A stretch of DNA of 60,960 bases, from contig JAFXVJ010000054.1 in assembly GCA_017524615.1 (NCBI GenBank), positions 1 to 60,960 on the forward strand, in the 5' to 3' direction. The stretch comes from Clostridia bacterium (GTDB taxonomy: Bacteria > Bacillota > Clostridia > Christensenellales > Aristaeellaceae). Below the pieces are notes generated by a model, which had not been told where the DNA came from, ran no database searches, and was given only the letters and a program-made list of their open reading frames with translations. The translations under genes were made by a program, and so were the position numbers. This document shows positions 1 to 44,745 of the stretch, in pieces (position 1 is the first letter of the stretch; every line of letters starts with the position of its first letter).

Positions 1-28
1 CCTGAGCCAGGATCAAACTCTTGTGTTT
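1..28 (-). rRNA. rrs: 16S ribosomal RNA, 5' end only (partial)
   Basis: Read on the minus strand, positions 21 to 1 give AGAGTTTGATCCTGGCTCAG, the universal 27F site at the start of bacterial 16S rRNA. Counting back from E. coli position 8 puts the mature 5' end near position 28. The rest of the gene lies to the left, outside the window. A promoter with the right orientation lies about 205 bases upstream, so this is a functional operon head rather than a fragment. Confidence 0.93.
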
Positions 29-232
29 AATCCTTCAACTTGCGATCTCTGGTGTCGCCTCCGCTTCGGTTCCTCCCCTCACAGGGATTCCCTCCGCGGC
101 GGCTACCGCGTCACAAGTCAAAACTCATTTCAGAATTAACTGTCGTTTTTTTCTCTCTTCTCTGTATCGTTTTCAAGATTCTCGCGCCCTTCCGGACCCT
201 CTTTCGAGGCCCCGTTTGCCGAGCGCTTGAAT
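29..232 (-). other. rRNA operon leader region
   Basis: This is the transcribed leader between the rRNA promoter and the mature 16S 5' end. No protein gene is supported here. It is expected to carry antitermination and RNase III processing signals, but I could not assign a boxA or a processing stem with confidence. Confidence 0.6.
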
Positions 233-262
233 AGAATATCACAAATCCTCCCTCCCTGTCAA
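233..262 (-). promoter_or_regulatory. rRNA operon promoter
   Basis: On the minus strand there is a perfect -35 TTGACA (262-257), an 18-base spacer and a -10 TATTCT (238-233). The -35 is preceded by an A-run that could act as an UP element. The 16-base string AAAAAGGTGTTGACAG recurs at 42230-42245 in the promoter of an unidentified transcript. Confidence 0.85.
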
Positions 263-371
263 CACCTTTTTTTCAAAAAAACCAATTTTCTTCAATCTTT
301 TTTTCGTCTTTTATTTCGTCCATAAAATTGCCGAACAATCCGTAATTCAACGTTTTTATCATTCGTAATAA

Positions 372-1123: not shown

Positions 1124-2167
1124 ATGACCGTCCTGCCCGAAGCGCGGGGGTTGAGCCGGGCTTGGCGCTGGGGAATCGGCAGCGCATTGGCGCTGACGCT
1201 TGCGATGGTTTGGCGGCCCCTGTCCCGGCTGATATGGCAGCTTGTTCTGGCATTGCTGCTGGCGGCACTGGCGCTGCCTCTCTGCCGGAAAATGGAAAGA
1301 AAAATATCCCGCCCCTGGGCCGCCGCCACCGCGGTAGCCGTGCTGGCGTCCGGGATATTGGGAATGATCGGCTTGCTGGTGCCCGTTGTGATCAGCCAGG
1401 TGAGTCTGGTGGCTTCTCAGATGCCCCGGCTGGTAACGGCGGTGCGGGAATTGTGGGACGGCATACAGCGCCAGGAGTGGATGGAAAAGCTGGGCCTGGA
1501 TTTGGAGGGGCCGGACACCTGGATCCGTCAGCTTGCGGACTGGATCGGCATCAGCCTGCCCAATTTGATCGCCGGTCTGGGCGCGGGAGTGGATACCCTG
1601 TCCCGGGCATTCCTATCGCCTGTGCTGGCCTTTTATTTTCTTCGGGATCGGGAAACCTTCTGCTATCGGCTTTCCCTGTGGATCCCGTTCCGGCATCGGA
1701 AGCAGGTGCTGGGCGCCATCCAGGAGATGCGACGGGAGGCGGGCGGATACATGCGGGGCCAGCTGCTGGTGGCCCTGGCGGTGGCGGCGCTGACTGCCAT
1801 CGGGCTTTTTTTCGCAGGCACTCCGGGATGGCTGGTGCTGGGCCTCCTGATGGGGCTGTGTGAATTCATCCCTTATGTGGGTCCGTTTATCGGCGGCGTG
1901 CCTATCGCCCTGTTTTCGCTGCCCCTGGGGATGCGCACCACGCTGTGGGCTCTGGGGGTGACCATTCTGGTGCAGCAAATCGAGGGGTCTTTTCTGTCTC
2001 CGCGTCTGATGGGCGGGGCGACCGGGTTGCATCCCGTTTATGTGCTGGTTCTTTTGTCGGCCGGCGGCATGCTGGGAGGGCTGGCGGGAATGATGGCCGC
2101 GCTGCCGGTCTTCGTGTGCGTCCGGGGAGCCAGCCGTGTGCTGTACGAATCACGGAAATGTCTTTGA
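1124..2167 (+). CDS. AI-2E family transporter (UPF0118-type membrane protein)
   Basis: The product has 347 residues, the usual size for this family. The N-terminal half carries a hydrophobic pair (VWRPLSRLIWQLVLALLLAALALPL, then the stretch AVAVLASGILGMIGLLVPVVI). A soluble middle section follows, and then the conserved C-terminal block of helices with LVLGLLMGLCEFIPYVGPFIGG near residues 240-260 and the late SFLSPRLMGG motif. Family members act in the cytoplasmic membrane as exporters or Na+/H+ antiporters; the substrate cannot be read here. RBS AAGGAGGGGG lies just before the ATG at 1124. The gene stands alone; the promoter of the next operon starts 40 bases later. Confidence 0.9.
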   Translation: MTVLPEARGLSRAWRWGIGSALALTLAMVWRPLSRLIWQLVLALLLAALALPLCRKMERKISRPWAAATAVAVLASGILGMIGLLVPVVISQVSLVASQMPRLVTAVRELWDGIQRQEWMEKLGLDLEGPDTWIRQLADWIGISLPNLIAGLGAGVDTLSRAFLSPVLAFYFLRDRETFCYRLSLWIPFRHRKQVLGAIQEMRREAGGYMRGQLLVALAVAALTAIGLFFAGTPGWLVLGLLMGLCEFIPYVGPFIGGVPIALFSLPLGMRTTLWALGVTILVQQIEGSFLSPRLMGGATGLHPVYVLVLLSAGGMLGGLAGMMAALPVFVCVRGASRVLYESRKCL

Positions 2168-2206
2168 CAGAAATGGCAATTTGTTTTATTTCCGCCCTTT
2201 TTCTCC

Positions 2207-2235
2207 TTGAAGTCCATCGGCAAATAGTGTATAAT
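2207..2235 (+). promoter_or_regulatory. Promoter of the ireB-ruvX-DUF1292 operon
   Basis: TTGAAG (2207-2212), a 17-base spacer and a perfect TATAAT (2230-2235), 25 bases before the ireB start. It has the right spacing for the housekeeping sigma factor. Confidence 0.8.
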
Positions 2236-2259
2236 AATATGAAGAAGGGAGGGAGCGCG

Positions 2260-2523
2260 ATGACAGACAGATTTGAAACCATGAGAATGCGCCCACTGCC
2301 GGAAGGACGGGAAACCGCATCGGAGATCCTGGCCCATGTTTACAGCGCCCTTCAGGGAAAAGGGTATGATCCCATTACGCAGTTGGTGGGCTTTGTGCTG
2401 ACGGGCGATCCCACCTACATCACCAGTTTTCAGGGCGCCCGGAGCATGATCTGCCGTCTGGAGCGGGACGAGATCCTGGAAGAGCTGGTGCGATTCTATG
2501 TGGAGAATAAGCTGAACGCATGA
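2260..2523 (+). CDS. ireB: IreB family regulatory phosphoprotein (DUF965)
   Basis: The product has 87 residues, the typical length of the IreB/YrzL family. In Enterococcus, IreB is a small cytoplasmic phosphoprotein and a substrate of the Ser/Thr kinase IreK, affecting cephalosporin tolerance. The conserved core GYDPITQLVGFVLTGDPTYITS and the C-terminal RDEILEELVRFYVE are clear. The start was chosen for RBS AAGGGAGGG before the ATG at 2260; a longer in-frame extension upstream is the shadow of the preceding gene. The stop overlaps the ruvX start (ATGA), the usual Bacillota gene order. Confidence 0.93.
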   Translation: MTDRFETMRMRPLPEGRETASEILAHVYSALQGKGYDPITQLVGFVLTGDPTYITSFQGARSMICRLERDEILEELVRFYVENKLNA

Positions 2524-2960
2524 CGGGAAGAATTCTGGCGCTGGACGTGGGCGACAGGCGCATCGGCATCGCGCTCAGCGATGCTTCGCGGCTCATCGCC
2601 ACGCCTCACAGTGTGTATACCCGGGTGGGGTATACACCGGATGTAAAATATATCGCGCAATTGTATCACAGCGTATCCGCCACGCTGCTGGTATGCGGAT
2701 TGCCGCGGAACATGGACGGCTCCATTGGCTTTCAGGCGGAAAAAGTACAGGCTTTCGCGGAAAAGCTGACAGAAGCCGGGCTTCCGGTGGCATTTCAGGA
2801 TGAAAGGCTGTCCACCGTATCCGCCCACCAGGCGCTGATCGAGGGCGGCATGCGGCGGGAGGAACGAAAGGGCACCGTGGATAAAGTGGCTGCCGCCGTC
2901 ATCCTGCAGCAGTATCTGGATGCTCAGCGGTCCGCGCAATCGCCGGAAACGGCACATTAA
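2520..2960 (+). CDS. ruvX: Holliday junction resolvase-like protein RuvX/YqgF
   Basis: The 146-residue protein has the RNase H-like fold of the YqgF family. The N-terminal ILALDVGDRRIGIALSD carries the first catalytic Asp; VCGLPRNMDGS near residue 59, DERLST near 96 and the final DKVAAAVILQQYL supply the other acidic positions. YqgF/RuvX is associated with pre-16S rRNA processing and recombination in the cytoplasm. Its 4-base overlap with ireB and short gap to the DUF1292 gene match the conserved yrzL-yrrK-yrzB operon of Bacillota. Confidence 0.93.
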   Translation: MTGRILALDVGDRRIGIALSDASRLIATPHSVYTRVGYTPDVKYIAQLYHSVSATLLVCGLPRNMDGSIGFQAEKVQAFAEKLTEAGLPVAFQDERLSTVSAHQALIEGGMRREERKGTVDKVAAAVILQQYLDAQRSAQSPETAH

Positions 2961-2979
2961 ATAATGGAGGAAACGACCC

Positions 2980-3294
2980 ATGACAGATGATAACAACAAC
3001 ATCCCTCAGGACGAGGAACTGCCCGAGGGTATCATCGAATTGACCGATGAGGACGGCGTGACGACCCAATTTGAATATCTGACCACCATTGAATACGAGG
3101 ACGAACTGTATGTCGTGCTGATGGTGCTGGACGATGAAGAAACGGACGATGACGAAGGGGAAGTGCTGATCCTGAAAATCGAGAAGGATCCCGAGACCGG
3201 CGAGGATATGTACGTCACCGTGGACGATGATCATGTGTCCCAGGCCGTATTCGATCAATTCGTGGCCATGATGGATGAAGAAGAGGAAGAATGA
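2980..3294 (+). CDS. DUF1292 family acidic protein (YrzB-like)
   Basis: This 104-residue, strongly acidic protein has the DUF1292 core: IELTDEDGVTTQFEYLTTIEYEDELYVVLM, then acid-rich segments and a final DEEEEE tail. The RBS is TGGAGGAAACG before the ATG at 2980. Its function is unknown in the family. It follows ruvX in one operon, as in most Bacillota, and is followed two bases later by a second copy of the same domain, which is less usual. Confidence 0.88.
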   Translation: MTDDNNNIPQDEELPEGIIELTDEDGVTTQFEYLTTIEYEDELYVVLMVLDDEETDDDEGEVLILKIEKDPETGEDMYVTVDDDHVSQAVFDQFVAMMDEEEEE

Positions 3295-41293: not shown

Positions 41294-42070
41294 TCATCCG
41301 AACATCCAGCGCACGATTTTTACGATATACTCCGACCAGAAGCGCATATCGTGCTGTCCGGGGCTTTCGCGGTACTCATGGGGAACGTTCAGCTCCGTCA
41401 GGAAGCGGTGCATGGCGCGGTTGGGCTCGATGAGAAAATCCTCGGTGCCGCAGCACAGATACATTTCCGGCAGCTTTTTCCCCGCCGCCAGCAGCCGGCG
41501 CACCTGGACCTCCGGGTTGCAGTCCCGCTGCTCCACGGTTTCCAGATCGCCGAAGCACTCACGGTAGTATTCATAATTGGCCATGCCGTTATCCTGGCCG
41601 GGTTTCATGCCCGCGATGCCGTGCACGATCAGCGCCGAGGACAGGGCGCCCGCCTTGCCGAAGCGCTCCGGATAGGCCAGGGCAGTGTGCAGCGCGCCGA
41701 AGCCGCCCATGGACATGCCGGCGATGCAGGTGTCCTCCGGCCTGCAAGCCAGGCCGAAGGTTTTGCGCACATAGTCCACCAATTCCTCGCCCAGCATGGA
41801 CTGATACGCCCGGCCGGTCGCTTCGCCGTTCAAATAGAAAGAGTTTTCCGCCGTCGGCATCACGATGGCAAAGTTGTACTGCTGGGCCAATTCCTCCGGC
41901 ACCCAGTTGCCCGCTTTGCCGGTGTAGCCATGCAGCAGGAACAGGGTGCGCATGGGCCCCGCGGGCTCCTGATGGGGGATGTCCGTGCGGATATCGTTGG
42001 GAATGAGCATTTCAAAGGATGTCATGCGGTGCAGGGCGTTAGAGAAGTATTCGATGCGGAAATAGGCCAT
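41294..42070 (-). CDS. Alpha/beta-hydrolase esterase (FrmB/EstA-like)
   Basis: The 258-residue serine esterase has an oxyanion region LFLLHGYTGKAGNWV near residues 43-57, the nucleophile elbow GMSMGGFGALHTAL near 122-135, the acidic residue in CCGTEDFLIE near 200 and the catalytic His in SPGQHDMRFW near 236. The family includes S-formylglutathione hydrolase-like and acetyl-xylan esterases. There is no signal peptide, so it is cytoplasmic. ATG 42070 follows AGGAGGATCG; the longer frame to 42115 is rejected. Confidence 0.88.
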   Translation of the reverse strand: MAYFRIEYFSNALHRMTSFEMLIPNDIRTDIPHQEPAGPMRTLFLLHGYTGKAGNWVPEELAQQYNFAIVMPTAENSFYLNGEATGRAYQSMLGEELVDYVRKTFGLACRPEDTCIAGMSMGGFGALHTALAYPERFGKAGALSSALIVHGIAGMKPGQDNGMANYEYYRECFGDLETVEQRDCNPEVQVRRLLAAGKKLPEMYLCCGTEDFLIEPNRAMHRFLTELNVPHEYRESPGQHDMRFWSEYIVKIVRWMFG

Positions 42071-42237
42071 GGCGCGATCCTCCTTCTGTGATCTAATCGC
42101 TGATCCGGGCCCCATTCGGCGGACGGATCCGATGGATACAGTGTAGCATGAAGGGTGGGAAAAGGCAAGGGCGACCCGCGCCGGGGATCGTTCATTTCCA
42201 ATCTGGAAATTTTTTTACCAAAATTCATAAAAAGGTG

Positions 42238-42266
42238 TTGACAGAGTGGAAATGCTGTGGTAATAT
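42238..42266 (+). promoter_or_regulatory. Very strong rRNA-like promoter
   Basis: TTGACA (42238-42243), 17-base spacer, TAATAT (42261-42266), preceded by a T/A-rich tract. The 16 bases AAAAAGGTGTTGACAG are identical to the rRNA operon promoter at the window start. Confidence 0.85.
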
Positions 42267-42369
42267 AAAGGCGAAAAGAGAGAGAAGAGTAGAAACGGAA
42301 GGACCCCAATCCCAACCAACCGACGAAAGCATCAAGCAAACGGACGGCATGGAGAAGGAGGAGATTCCC

Positions 42370-42435
42370 ATGGATCAGGCAAATTGGCGGTGGGGGCAAT
42401 ATCTTCAATCGGAAAGGCTGAATCGCGCTGTATAA
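42370..42435 (+). CDS. Short ORF, 21 residues, with a perfect ribosome-binding site
   Basis: AGGAGG (42356-42361) lies 8 bases before the ATG at 42370, and the frame ends at TAA 42433-42435. The peptide starts MDQANWRWGQYL and ends SERLNRAV, with two Trp and three Arg. It is soluble and amphipathic, not a signal peptide. It is the only translatable unit behind the rRNA-like promoter. It could be a leader peptide or a functional small protein. I do not recognise it. Confidence 0.5.
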   Translation: MDQANWRWGQYLQSERLNRAV

Positions 42436-42774
42436 GATGGCTGCATCATCAGGCAGCAACGCATGGAGCGAAAAGAAAACCAGCGGATCAGACCAAAACA
42501 GAAAAAACCAAAATAATAGAAAAGGATAAGCTCAATCAGGATATGACCGGCCCGCCCCCACCGGAACAGGGAAAAAGGATCACTGCGAAAGAGAAAGAAC
42601 AAGATAAACCGAACCAGACATCAGGAAATCGATTCGGATGGATCCAAACAAAACGAAGCCGCGAAACCAAACCAGATCAAGGGTCAAAAGCATGCAGGGC
42701 CCTGACTTCGCGCCTTTGAAGCAAAGCTTTCTCGCCATGATCCCATAAACGGGTTAAAAATATAATAGAAAAAC

Positions 42775-42805
42775 ATCAGGGCTGCCGTGAGGGCAGCCCT
42801 GATTT
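42775..42805. terminator. Terminator shared by the T-poor transcript and the PhoR gene
   Basis: A perfect 12-bp stem ATCAGGGCTGCC / GGCAGCCCTGAT with a 5-base loop. On the minus strand it is followed by a good T-tract (A-run at 42769-42773 on plus); on the plus strand only TT follows. Confidence 0.82.
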
Positions 42806-43026
42806 GTGCTGTCATGCGCGGACCGCGTATCAGCCTGTCGGCAAAGGATCCGGGGGATGCAGGCGGCGCGTACGTCGCTTGGGAGCGGTCCCGGACCGCT
42901 TCCCCGATCGGGTTTCGGACGAAACCCGACGGGCCCATCGGCAGACGGCCGCCGCCGGCAGCGCGCCGATATGCTTTTCCGCGCCGTGCTTCAGTTCGGG
43001 CTGCGCTTCCGTGTGGGCAAGGCACC

Positions 43027-44745
43027 TTACCCTGCCGGCGGAGGGACAATGAAGGAAAATTCGCTGCCTTGGCCGGGGGTGCTGGTCAATTGAATGCTCA
43101 GGCCCATTTTTTCCAGGATTTCCTTGGCGATGGACAGGCCCAGGCCGCTGCCCTTGTCGCTGCGGCCCCGTTCAGCCTGGTGGAAACGGTCGAAGGCCAG
43201 GCGCTGTGTTTCCTCATCCATGCCGATGCCGGTATCCCGAACGAAGAATCGGGTGCCGCCGGATGCCGCCTGGGCTCCCAGGATGACCTCGCCGCCGGAT
43301 GGCGTATATTTCCGGGCGTTGTCCAGAAAAATGGTCAGCGTTTGGGACAGGCGATCCTCATTGGACCAGATGTCCGGCAGCGGCGCGTCGGGCAGGGAGC
43401 GAAGAAAGCGAATGCCTTTTTGCTCAAACAGGCTGCTGTTGCGGTCATGCAGCTCGTAAATCAGTTCATTGGGATCGATGCGTTCCATTTCAAAGGCGGC
43501 GGGATTGGACTGCAGGGAGCTGAGCTCCAGCAGATCATCCACCAGCCGGGACAGGCGGGTGGCCTCATCCACGATGATGCTGTAATAGCGCTGACGGTCC
43601 CCCTCCTCGCTGACCAGGCCGTCCCGCAGGCCTTCGCCCAGCCCCCGAATGGACGCCAGGGGCGTGCGCAGTTCATGGGAAATATTGGCCACGTAATCAT
43701 AGCGGGTGCGCTCCAGCCGTTCCTGCTCCGTAATATCCCGGATCAGGGCTACCACGCCGCGGCTGGCCCCCTCCTCCTCCCGGGGCAGGCGGGAAATGGC
43801 GCAGTACAGCACCCGGTCTCCCGCGGTGAATTTCAGATCCCACTGATCCTCCGGCTGCTTTTCCTGCAAGGCGGCCATCACGGAGCGATAGGCGGGGGTT
43901 TCCTCTCCGCCCAACAGCTCCCAGGCGGCGGCATTTTCATGCAGGATGCTGCCCCTGTCATCCACCGCCAGAATGCCTTCGCTCAGCCCCTCCAGGATCA
44001 GGCTCATGCTTTCTTTTTCACATTTCAGCTCCCCGATGGCCTTGGCCACGCTGCGGCTCATGTAATTGAGGGCGCTGGCGATTTCCCGCGTGTCCCGTCC
44101 GGGCAGATCCTCCGGCAGGGTCACCTGCTCCCCCTCGGTGATCCGTCCCGCCATCTGGGTGATGATCCGCGCGGGCCGGGCGGCGCGGCGGGCAACCAGG
44201 GTGCTGATCAGCACGGTCACGGCGGATATGGCCACCATGGAGATCAGCAGCCGGTTTCGGAAGGACACCGCCGCCCCGTTGAAGGCGTGCATGGGCAGGC
44301 CCGCCAGCACGGAGCCATTCTCCGTGCGCCGACCCATCATCAGCACGGCGGTGTCGCCGAGGCGGACCTGGGCGGAAACGGAAGGCTCCCGGCGCAGGCT
44401 GTCCAGCAGGGTGCCCAGGGCGCCGCCGCCCTCGGAACAGGACACGCTTCGGGTGCGGGCCAGCACCTGCTGATCCGGCCCCAGGAAAATGCAGAACGCG
44501 CCGCCGGTGAACAGGAGCGGGTTGGCCGCGGCATCCAGGTCTTCCCGGGCGATTTCACCGCTTTCGTACTGCGCCAGCAGCGTTTCCGCCTGCGTCAGGG
44601 CGCCGGACAGGCTGCGGTTGATGGAATCGGTGTAGATATCCGAAAAATAATAGCTGCTCACGGCGAAATACACCACCGTCACGCAGAGCAGGCACAGGAT
44701 CAATTCCGTCAGGAACCGGGCCACGGAAAAGGACAGCTTAGGCAT
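43027..44745 (-). CDS. Sensor histidine kinase, PhoR/WalK type
   Basis: The 572-residue membrane kinase. An N-terminal helix (ELILCLLCVTVVYFAVSSYYF near residues 14-34) is followed by an extracytoplasmic sensor domain of about 140 residues. A second helix (LLISMVAISAVTVLISTLVA near 168-187), HAMP, then a PAS domain (GILAVDDRGSILHENAAAWELLGG near 252-275) come next. HisKA has the phospho-acceptor ANISHELRTPLASI near 349-362, and HATPase_c ends with DTGIGMDEETQ and GSGLGLSIAKEIL. It overlaps the response-regulator gene by 8 bases. Signal unknown; phosphate or envelope stress are the usual options. Confidence 0.93.
   Translation of the reverse strand: MPKLSFSVARFLTELILCLLCVTVVYFAVSSYYFSDIYTDSINRSLSGALTQAETLLAQYESGEIAREDLDAAANPLLFTGGAFCIFLGPDQQVLARTRSVSCSEGGGALGTLLDSLRREPSVSAQVRLGDTAVLMMGRRTENGSVLAGLPMHAFNGAAVSFRNRLLISMVAISAVTVLISTLVARRAARPARIITQMAGRITEGEQVTLPEDLPGRDTREIASALNYMSRSVAKAIGELKCEKESMSLILEGLSEGILAVDDRGSILHENAAAWELLGGEETPAYRSVMAALQEKQPEDQWDLKFTAGDRVLYCAISRLPREEEGASRGVVALIRDITEQERLERTRYDYVANISHELRTPLASIRGLGEGLRDGLVSEEGDRQRYYSIIVDEATRLSRLVDDLLELSSLQSNPAAFEMERIDPNELIYELHDRNSSLFEQKGIRFLRSLPDAPLPDIWSNEDRLSQTLTIFLDNARKYTPSGGEVILGAQAASGGTRFFVRDTGIGMDEETQRLAFDRFHQAERGRSDKGSGLGLSIAKEILEKMGLSIQLTSTPGQGSEFSFIVPPPAG

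Follow-up and report, generated by a model that had tools for sequence, protein, structure and literature searches.

Transfer-messenger RNA (tmRNA) is structured and engages ribosomes by way of a short ORF. RNAIII of Staphylococcus aureus, a dual-function regulatory RNA of 514 nt, encodes delta-haemolysin, and SprF1 of S. aureus, a type I antitoxin of 138 nt, has no ORF (both as described in the available part of PMC9266662). ROOL has no function described in the available text of PMC12286853. Short ORFs are common in bacterial small RNAs, at least about a tenth of which are estimated to carry a coding ORF (available part of PMC5521070).

The unit described here lies at positions 42238–42803 of the plus strand of the window, the whole 60,960-nt stretch of DNA that was analysed, and is made up of a promoter and an RBS, followed by a frame of 21 codons, a tract poor in T and a stem of 12 bp. 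Its tentative explanation is a strongly transcribed structured RNA of approximately 535 nt that would also serve as an efficient mini-mRNA. The parts of the unit are as follows.

42205..42237, plus strand: A/T-rich upstream (UP-like) region, alike side by side to the region upstream of the rRNA promoter
42238..42266, plus strand: promoter TTGACA-17-TAATAT (TTGACA at 42238–42243, TAATAT at 42261–42266)
42273..42369, plus strand: leader ending in the RBS GGAGGAGATTCCC, with a transcription start at about 42273 inferred from the promoter
42370..42435, plus strand: mini-ORF of 21 codons plus TAA (MDQANWRWGQYLQSERLNRAV), with AGGAGG, ATG at 42370 and TAA at 42433–42435
42775..42803, plus strand: terminator-like stem-loop of 12 perfect pairs (42775–42786 with 42792–42803)

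The promoter at 42238–42266 is the single site matching TTGACA-N16..18-TAnnAT on either strand of the window, and each of the other 20 members of the family defined below has a TTGAC(A/T)-17-TAnnAT promoter at the equivalent position. The promoter of this window is identical at 16 of 16 bases to the rRNA promoter region at window positions 256–271 on the minus strand. The gene at the window start (1–271, minus strand) reads like 16S rRNA at its 5′ end; Rfam gave no match there, presumably because few of its bases fall inside the window. We infer an UP function for 42205–42237 from its sequence. In the DNA search this region also matched places near contig ends in relatives, which we take for rRNA promoters. 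An earlier note on this DNA had claimed the strong promoter, the 16 bases in common with the rRNA promoter, a 21-residue frame with a perfect RBS, the T-poor tract and the 12-bp stem, and all were found as described. The stem is followed here by a short T run alone (TTGTG), and in most other members the 3′ element is followed by a stem whose T run is longer.

The T content is 9.6% and the A content 44.1% across 42436–42696, and 12.5% and 39.4%, respectively, across the 487-nt body (42274–42760). The composition had been called unusual, which holds for the AT skew of the body, at 0.52 against a highest value of 0.43 among stretches starting outside 41700–43000, but not for low T by itself: 53 of 6,048 same-length stretches, taken in steps of 10 bases and including those overlapping the unit, are as low in T or A. 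Near window position 1660, a stretch of similar length has an A content down to 10.3%, mirroring the T-poor unit on the other strand.

On comparative sequence grounds, the unit is a member of a previously undescribed structured RNA family of approximately 450–580 bases, present in this rumen bacterium and its close relatives. A first DNA search of 41 genomes, with inspection, showed that further genomes of the genus carry the unit. Scanning contigs with a pattern gave 14 records titled as uncultured Clostridia, Clostridiales or Christensenellaceae, of which 12 repeated known units and two were new (L029 and L036, the units of genomes G138 and G137). Deer, goat or buffalo, mostly the forestomachs of these animals, are named in six of the titles; seven carry RUG codes, which we take to denote rumen genomes, and one gives no source. 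Covariance models built from 10 members (R1) and 19 members (R2) were run against genomes of the bacterial family, with stricter filters in the search of all 308 and membership set at E < 1e-7. The result is 21 members, of which 20 come from as many of the 29 genus genomes and one lies on a contig attributed to a different genus: L001 (this window), L009, L010, L012, L014, L015, L016, L018, L019, L020, L021, L022, L024, L025, L029, L036, L100, L101, L102, L109 and L119. The last of these comes from G181, the only one of the six searched genomes of its genus with a member. L119 sits among the rows of the main genus in the tree (88/72 with L101) and the G181 assembly is 59% complete, so its contig may have been misbinned.

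The earlier note had set as grounds against the unit its loss from relatives that keep the flanking genes. In the members, promoter and short frame are kept although the flanking genes differ. Retention is nevertheless partial, as the covariance models detect no unit in nine of the 29 genus genomes, five of which are at least 91% complete; of the nine genus genomes with a completeness of 90% or more and a contamination of 5% or less, four carry the RNA and five lack it. Some model match at E up to 0.05 occurs in 102 of the 308 genomes, the best beyond the 21 members being at 1.1e-5, for a further site in G140, and at 2.4e-5. Judged from the weak matches that were inspected, beyond which many at E up to 0.05 remain, these are mostly protein starts with the same RBS (the further G140 site among them, along with EF-Tu-like and GAPDH-like frames); L122, L136, L144 and L147 are without a recognisable start signal. 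Plasmids and phages gave no blastn match to the unit, and viral contigs gave none to one exact 23-base pattern, on which basis a mobile element was rejected.

A separate intergenic unit occurs in L089/L084 (G001:C76:10500-14500, at 2113–3053 on the minus strand) and in L162 (G022:C121). It has the same RBS and a 23-codon frame, several hundred bases before the next gene. Identity between the two genomes is 77% over its first 257 nt, and the frame in G022 starts with GTG. This unit was set aside as different, no P2-like arrangement being seen by eye. The main RNA was found in neither G001 nor G022.

The predicted fold of the RNA is organised around a long-range helix, P2, whose 5′ strand lies within the mini-ORF. 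Its elements in the window are listed below.

42388..42397, plus strand: 5′ strand of helix P2, CGGTGGGGGC, within the ORF (21 of 21 members)
42426..42430, plus strand: 5′ strand of helix P2b, CGCTG (comparison and fold)
42440..42457, plus strand: hairpin P2a, GCTGC/GCAGC (comparison and fold)
42460..42470, plus strand: small hairpin P2c, CGC/GCG (minimum-energy fold here; by eye in several other members)
42481..42485, plus strand: 3′ strand of helix P2b, CAGCG (comparison and fold)
42554..42563, plus strand: 3′ strand of helix P2, GCCCCCACCG (comparison and single-sequence fold)
42577..42582, plus strand: 5′ strand of helix P3, GGATCA (comparison and fold)
42738..42743, plus strand: 3′ strand of helix P3, TGATCC (comparison and fold)
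42742..42755, plus strand: 3′ element CCC-N(5..8)-GGGTT (the permissive pattern CCC-N2..8-GGGTT is present in 21 of 21 members)

P2 was the best helix between the ORF and downstream sequence in all 16 members examined before the last five were found, and then in all five of these. Counting from the A of the AUG as zero, it starts at +17 or +18 in the 16 members, except for L018 (+21), and at +18, +18, +18, +20 and +18 in the later five. It comprises 8–13 uninterrupted base pairs, G-U allowed, and its partner is a C-rich strand at +145 to +249. When the downstream bases were shuffled 200 times, between 0 and 7 shuffles per member gave a helix as good (n = 21), and at most one did so in each of the five later members. 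The eight core pairs are formed in 167 of 168 cells. Pair 5 is C-G in 11 members, U-A in eight and G-C in two, and on a tree built with the P2 strands masked the minimum numbers of changes at pairs 5, 8, 9, 10 and 11 are 3, 3, 5, 2 and 5, with pairs 9, 10 and 11 unpaired in 4, 7 and 7 rows, respectively. In single-sequence folds the mean pair probability of P2 exceeds 0.5 in 20 of the 21 members, reaching 0.97 in that of this window; it is 0.06 in L119.

P2b and P2a are nested inside P2, and P3 lies downstream. Variants of these helices include UCUGC/GCAGA, CCUGC/GCAGG and GCUGC/GCAGC for P2b, GCUUG/CAAGC, GCCUG/CAGGC and GCUGC/GCAGC for P2a, and GGAUC/GAUCC for P3, which is GGAUG/CAUCC in clade C, was not found in L018 and is doubtful in L109. 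The 3′ element overlaps P3 and is a candidate hairpin or extension of it. A clade-specific helix inside P3, P4, scores well in clades A, B and C, L102 and L119. In L021 and L022, near-repeats of the 5′ segment of P4 (GGAACGGAGCGCAAAAAAGAA and variants), at about +200 to +310 from the ATG, expand the 3′ domain.

An alignment anchored by hand on the helices, made from 16 of the 21 members before the other five were found, has 16 rows, 13 of them distinct, and 93.9% of its 345 cells pair. Its covariation score is 0.292, compared with 0.112 ± 0.015 for shuffled rows (reached by 0 of 500 shuffles) and 0.029–0.074 for slid pairings. Two weaker measures separate less well from shuffles: both partners have changed in 10 of 27 pairs (7.6 shuffled; 33 of 500 shuffles reach 10), and 21 pair types occur (18.6 shuffled; 73 of 500 reach 21). 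Hand anchoring favours pairing, and three further views were therefore taken, namely the best-helix scan described above, which chose its position freely, a model-fitted alignment and the single-sequence folds. The model-fitted alignment of 19 members, which leans toward structure, gave a covariation of 0.204 against 0.060 shuffled and at most 0.087 slid; L018 and L109, poorly aligned by the model, were omitted from alignment A5, and a second, low-scoring L025 row (E 0.025) was left out. The minimum-energy fold of the RNA in this window contains P2, P2b, P2a, P2c and P3. Folding energies are modestly below those of shuffled sequences (z from +0.07 to −3.08 in 16 members). The suggestion that the skewed composition marks an unstructured RNA is thus contradicted by long-range helices that covary, although the folding energies are only modestly low.

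A hairpin, P1, ends 16–20 nt before the AUG in clades A, B and C and in L100–L102 (CCGGA-CAGU-UCCGG, UUCGGA-UAGU-UCCGAA and GGA-UCGU-UCC, among others). In the same members it is separated from P2 by 33–37 nt, which we take to be about one ribosome footprint. P1 is individually strong in clade B, L101, L102, L009 and L025 and in no others, and is unsupported in the member of this window, L018, L109 and L119. By prediction, the start signal (0.44) is no more open than the average of the RNA (0.48). Sequestration of the start codon by the 3′ TGATCC strand was rejected: in L100, L101 and L102, ATGGCCCA replaces ATGGATCA, yet the GGATCA/TGATCC pairing of P3 is kept, and P3 therefore shows no covariation, by eye, with the start.

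An RBS–AUG start signal is present in 21 of 21 members, and no other stretch of the aligned RNA is as well conserved. Both observations are partly ascertainment, because every member was found by searches that included the start signal, five of the 21 by a model that also included P2. In the 2.55-Mb genome, GGAGGAGATTCCCATG has exactly two sites, one at the mini-ORF and one at an EF-Tu-like start (G000:C3:17246-17261), and a site with one mismatch precedes a GAPDH-like frame (C22:4289-4304); these two frames are presumed to be EF-Tu and GAPDH from their N-termini. The 16-base start signal also occurs before EF-Tu-like and other frames in other genera of the family. The frame ends at +51 to +78 in all 21 members. 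The chance of a stop in this range is 0.08–0.34 for each member, with a product of about 10^-6 over nine diverged members, a value to be read with the range having been picked post hoc and the nine members not being fully independent.

In four separate ORF pairs (L015/16, L021/22, L019/20 and L010/12), 15 changed codons are non-synonymous and four synonymous. AATTGAATA is invariant in 10 of 10 rows of alignment A3 (clades A and B), yet clade A reads it as (C)AA-TTG-AAT-A and clade B as A-ATT-GAA-TA. The residues encoded by the P2 strand are AAG or AVG in part of the members and RRR or RWG in the rest. With mostly non-synonymous changes and frames that depend on the clade, the peptide is not what is conserved; the pattern points to selection on the RNA and, it seems, on its translation signals. 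Mean hydropathy of the peptides ranges from −2.02 to +0.19 (n = 21) and is below zero in 18, unlike the hydrophobic peptide of a type I toxin.

These results set the RNA apart from the systems outlined above. It resembles RNAIII (as described in the available part of PMC9266662) in its length of about 500 nt, structure, short ORF and C-rich stretches. The toxin encoded by RNAIII is its second function, whereas the product of the ORF here, judged for conservation alone, is not conserved, and the C-rich strand here is paired with the ORF and varies among clades; the RNA gives no Rfam match. If the 5′ part of the RNA acts on ribosomes or through them, it would recall SprF1, by analogy; unlike SprF1, the RNA has a full start signal with a short ORF, and no partner toxin came to notice. 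The scan of both strands of the window for TTGACA-type promoters gave no second one that might serve an antisense antitoxin. ROOL, GOLLD and OLE are likewise large structured bacterial RNAs; the family differs from them in its start signal and mini-ORF and in the lack of any phage, plasmid or viral match in the searches above. Compared with small RNAs that carry coding ORFs (available part of PMC5521070), the signal here is reversed.

Rfam 15 gave no match at gathering in the whole window (ROOL, GOLLD, OLE, 6S and tmRNA included), three sub-gathering matches with E values of 0.39–1.1 over 42000–43100, and one sub-gathering match (E 0.62) at the loci of seven other members, which fits the earlier claim that the promoter leads to no recognisable gene. 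ARAGORN predicted neither a tRNA nor a tmRNA in the window. A substitute for tmRNA was rejected: separate tmRNA genes score over the cut-off in 24 of the 29 genus genomes, including this one (G000:C24:20446-20792), and the RNA itself has no tmRNA match. Hfq (PF17209) and CsrA (PF02599) matched in none of the 29 genus genomes, which are incomplete drafts, compared with 5 and 3 of 14 control genomes, respectively. GGA motifs give z values of 0.3 to 2.7 in 16 members, all positive and most near 1, without strong excess. With no Hfq or CsrA match and mild GGA enrichment, a CsrA/RsmA sponge and an Hfq-dependent small RNA are both disfavoured. The literature, which was covered in part, yielded no paper naming this RNA. 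It is filed as a new family among translated structured RNAs, and not as a member of RNAIII, SprF1 or the ornate RNAs.

The nearest upstream frames are alike within four groups of genomes ({G014, G023}, {G003, G011, G137}, {G005, G007, G013, G020} and {G004, G010, G019}), and the downstream frames are alike in G010 and G013 by BLAST, and in G019 by eye. The other members have no flanking frame in common at E 1e-10. The choice of these frames was automatic and probably put some on the wrong strand; for four of the 21 genomes it yielded no downstream frame. The same downstream gene, as expected of a cis-acting leader or attenuator, does not recur in relatives. As the neighbours vary and a terminator-like stem closes the unit, a leader peptide, as the earlier note had suggested, is unlikely for an adjoining gene; the unit appears to be independent and separately transcribed rather than the leader of any one gene.

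The reading preferred here, with a probability of roughly 0.4, is that of a ribosome-gated RNA, that is, a translated regulatory RNA whose long-range helix would be opened by the ribosome. A ribosome would dock on the EF-Tu-like start signal of the mini-ORF, and its leading edge, given the size of the ribosome footprint, would reach the foot of P2, 17–21 nt from the A of the AUG. On elongating, it would have to melt P2; it would stop near helix P2b, and P2 could then re-form behind it. The RNA would alternate in this way between two states, folded when free of ribosomes and open when translated, with translation capacity, and not the peptide, as its input. Candidate outputs are a base-pairing target, a bound protein or the stability of the RNA itself. 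Action in trans is most likely, because no common gene lies downstream.

An antisense-type riboregulator of the RNAIII kind would pair with mRNAs and carry its short ORF by happenstance. The lack of an Hfq match in 29 of 29 genomes speaks against it, though RNAs of this type need not use Hfq. Such RNAs are known (available part of PMC9266662), and the size, small ORF, long-range pairing and C-rich strand would all fit; that strand, however, covaries with the ORF and varies among clades, unlike a conserved seed, and this reading is unlikely, if the least so of the rivals. Somewhat less likely, and drawn by analogy, is a ribosome-docking decoy, in which an RNA made under an rRNA-like promoter would engage ribosomes through an optimal start signal, hold them at P2 and damp the translation of other mRNAs. 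The rRNA-like promoter, a start signal identical to that of the EF-Tu-like frame, a stable helix at the presumed leading edge of the ribosome and, in clades A, B and C and L100–L102, a P1 that frames the 33–37-nt window are all consistent with it, and SprF1, whose 5′ end binds ribosomes and attenuates translation, is a precedent (available part of PMC9266662). A short frame with a constrained stop position would release the ribosome, though, and a pure decoy would need no stop, P2b, P2a or P3.

Several conserved helices and A-rich stretches would also suit a structural or scaffold RNA like OLE, ROOL or GOLLD, and large structured bacterial RNAs exist, one of them from cow rumen (available part of PMC12286853). 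The start signal would then be incidental or stabilise the transcript, but it is the most conserved stretch (partly through ascertainment) and the end of the frame is constrained, which leaves this reading slightly less likely still than the decoy. A small-protein gene, one option of the earlier note, with the peptide of 17–26 residues as its product is improbable: the translation signals of the members are excellent and there is weak residue likeness near the start (MDQ/MDH/MAH/MNQ, AVG/AAG), but the 15 to 4 excess of non-synonymous codons in four separate pairs, P2 nucleotides that encode AAG/AVG or RRR/RWG according to clade, and conserved nucleotides read in shifting frames all disfavour it. 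The patchy occurrence, in 20 of 29 genus genomes, would be expected of a decayed or chance unit whose promoter and frame have no function; compensatory changes across wide divergence make this highly improbable.

Taken one step further, the ribosome-gated reading would make translation of a throwaway mini-ORF the functional input, with an EF-Tu-grade start placing the ribosome against a long-range helix that the ORF itself forms. The RNA, with its rRNA-like promoter, might then let the cell gauge or buffer its free ribosomes, doing for ribosomes what 6S RNA does for RNA polymerase; this extension is doubtful on present comparisons. The finding adds a covariation-supported RNA family in a little-studied group of rumen bacteria, and one with an unusual rule, in which the start signal, the length of the frame and a long-range helix inside the ORF are kept while the peptide drifts. 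If the ribosome-gated model is true, the family would offer a clean system for how bacteria sense free ribosomes through an RNA, and would caution against labelling such ORFs as small proteins or such RNAs as noncoding.
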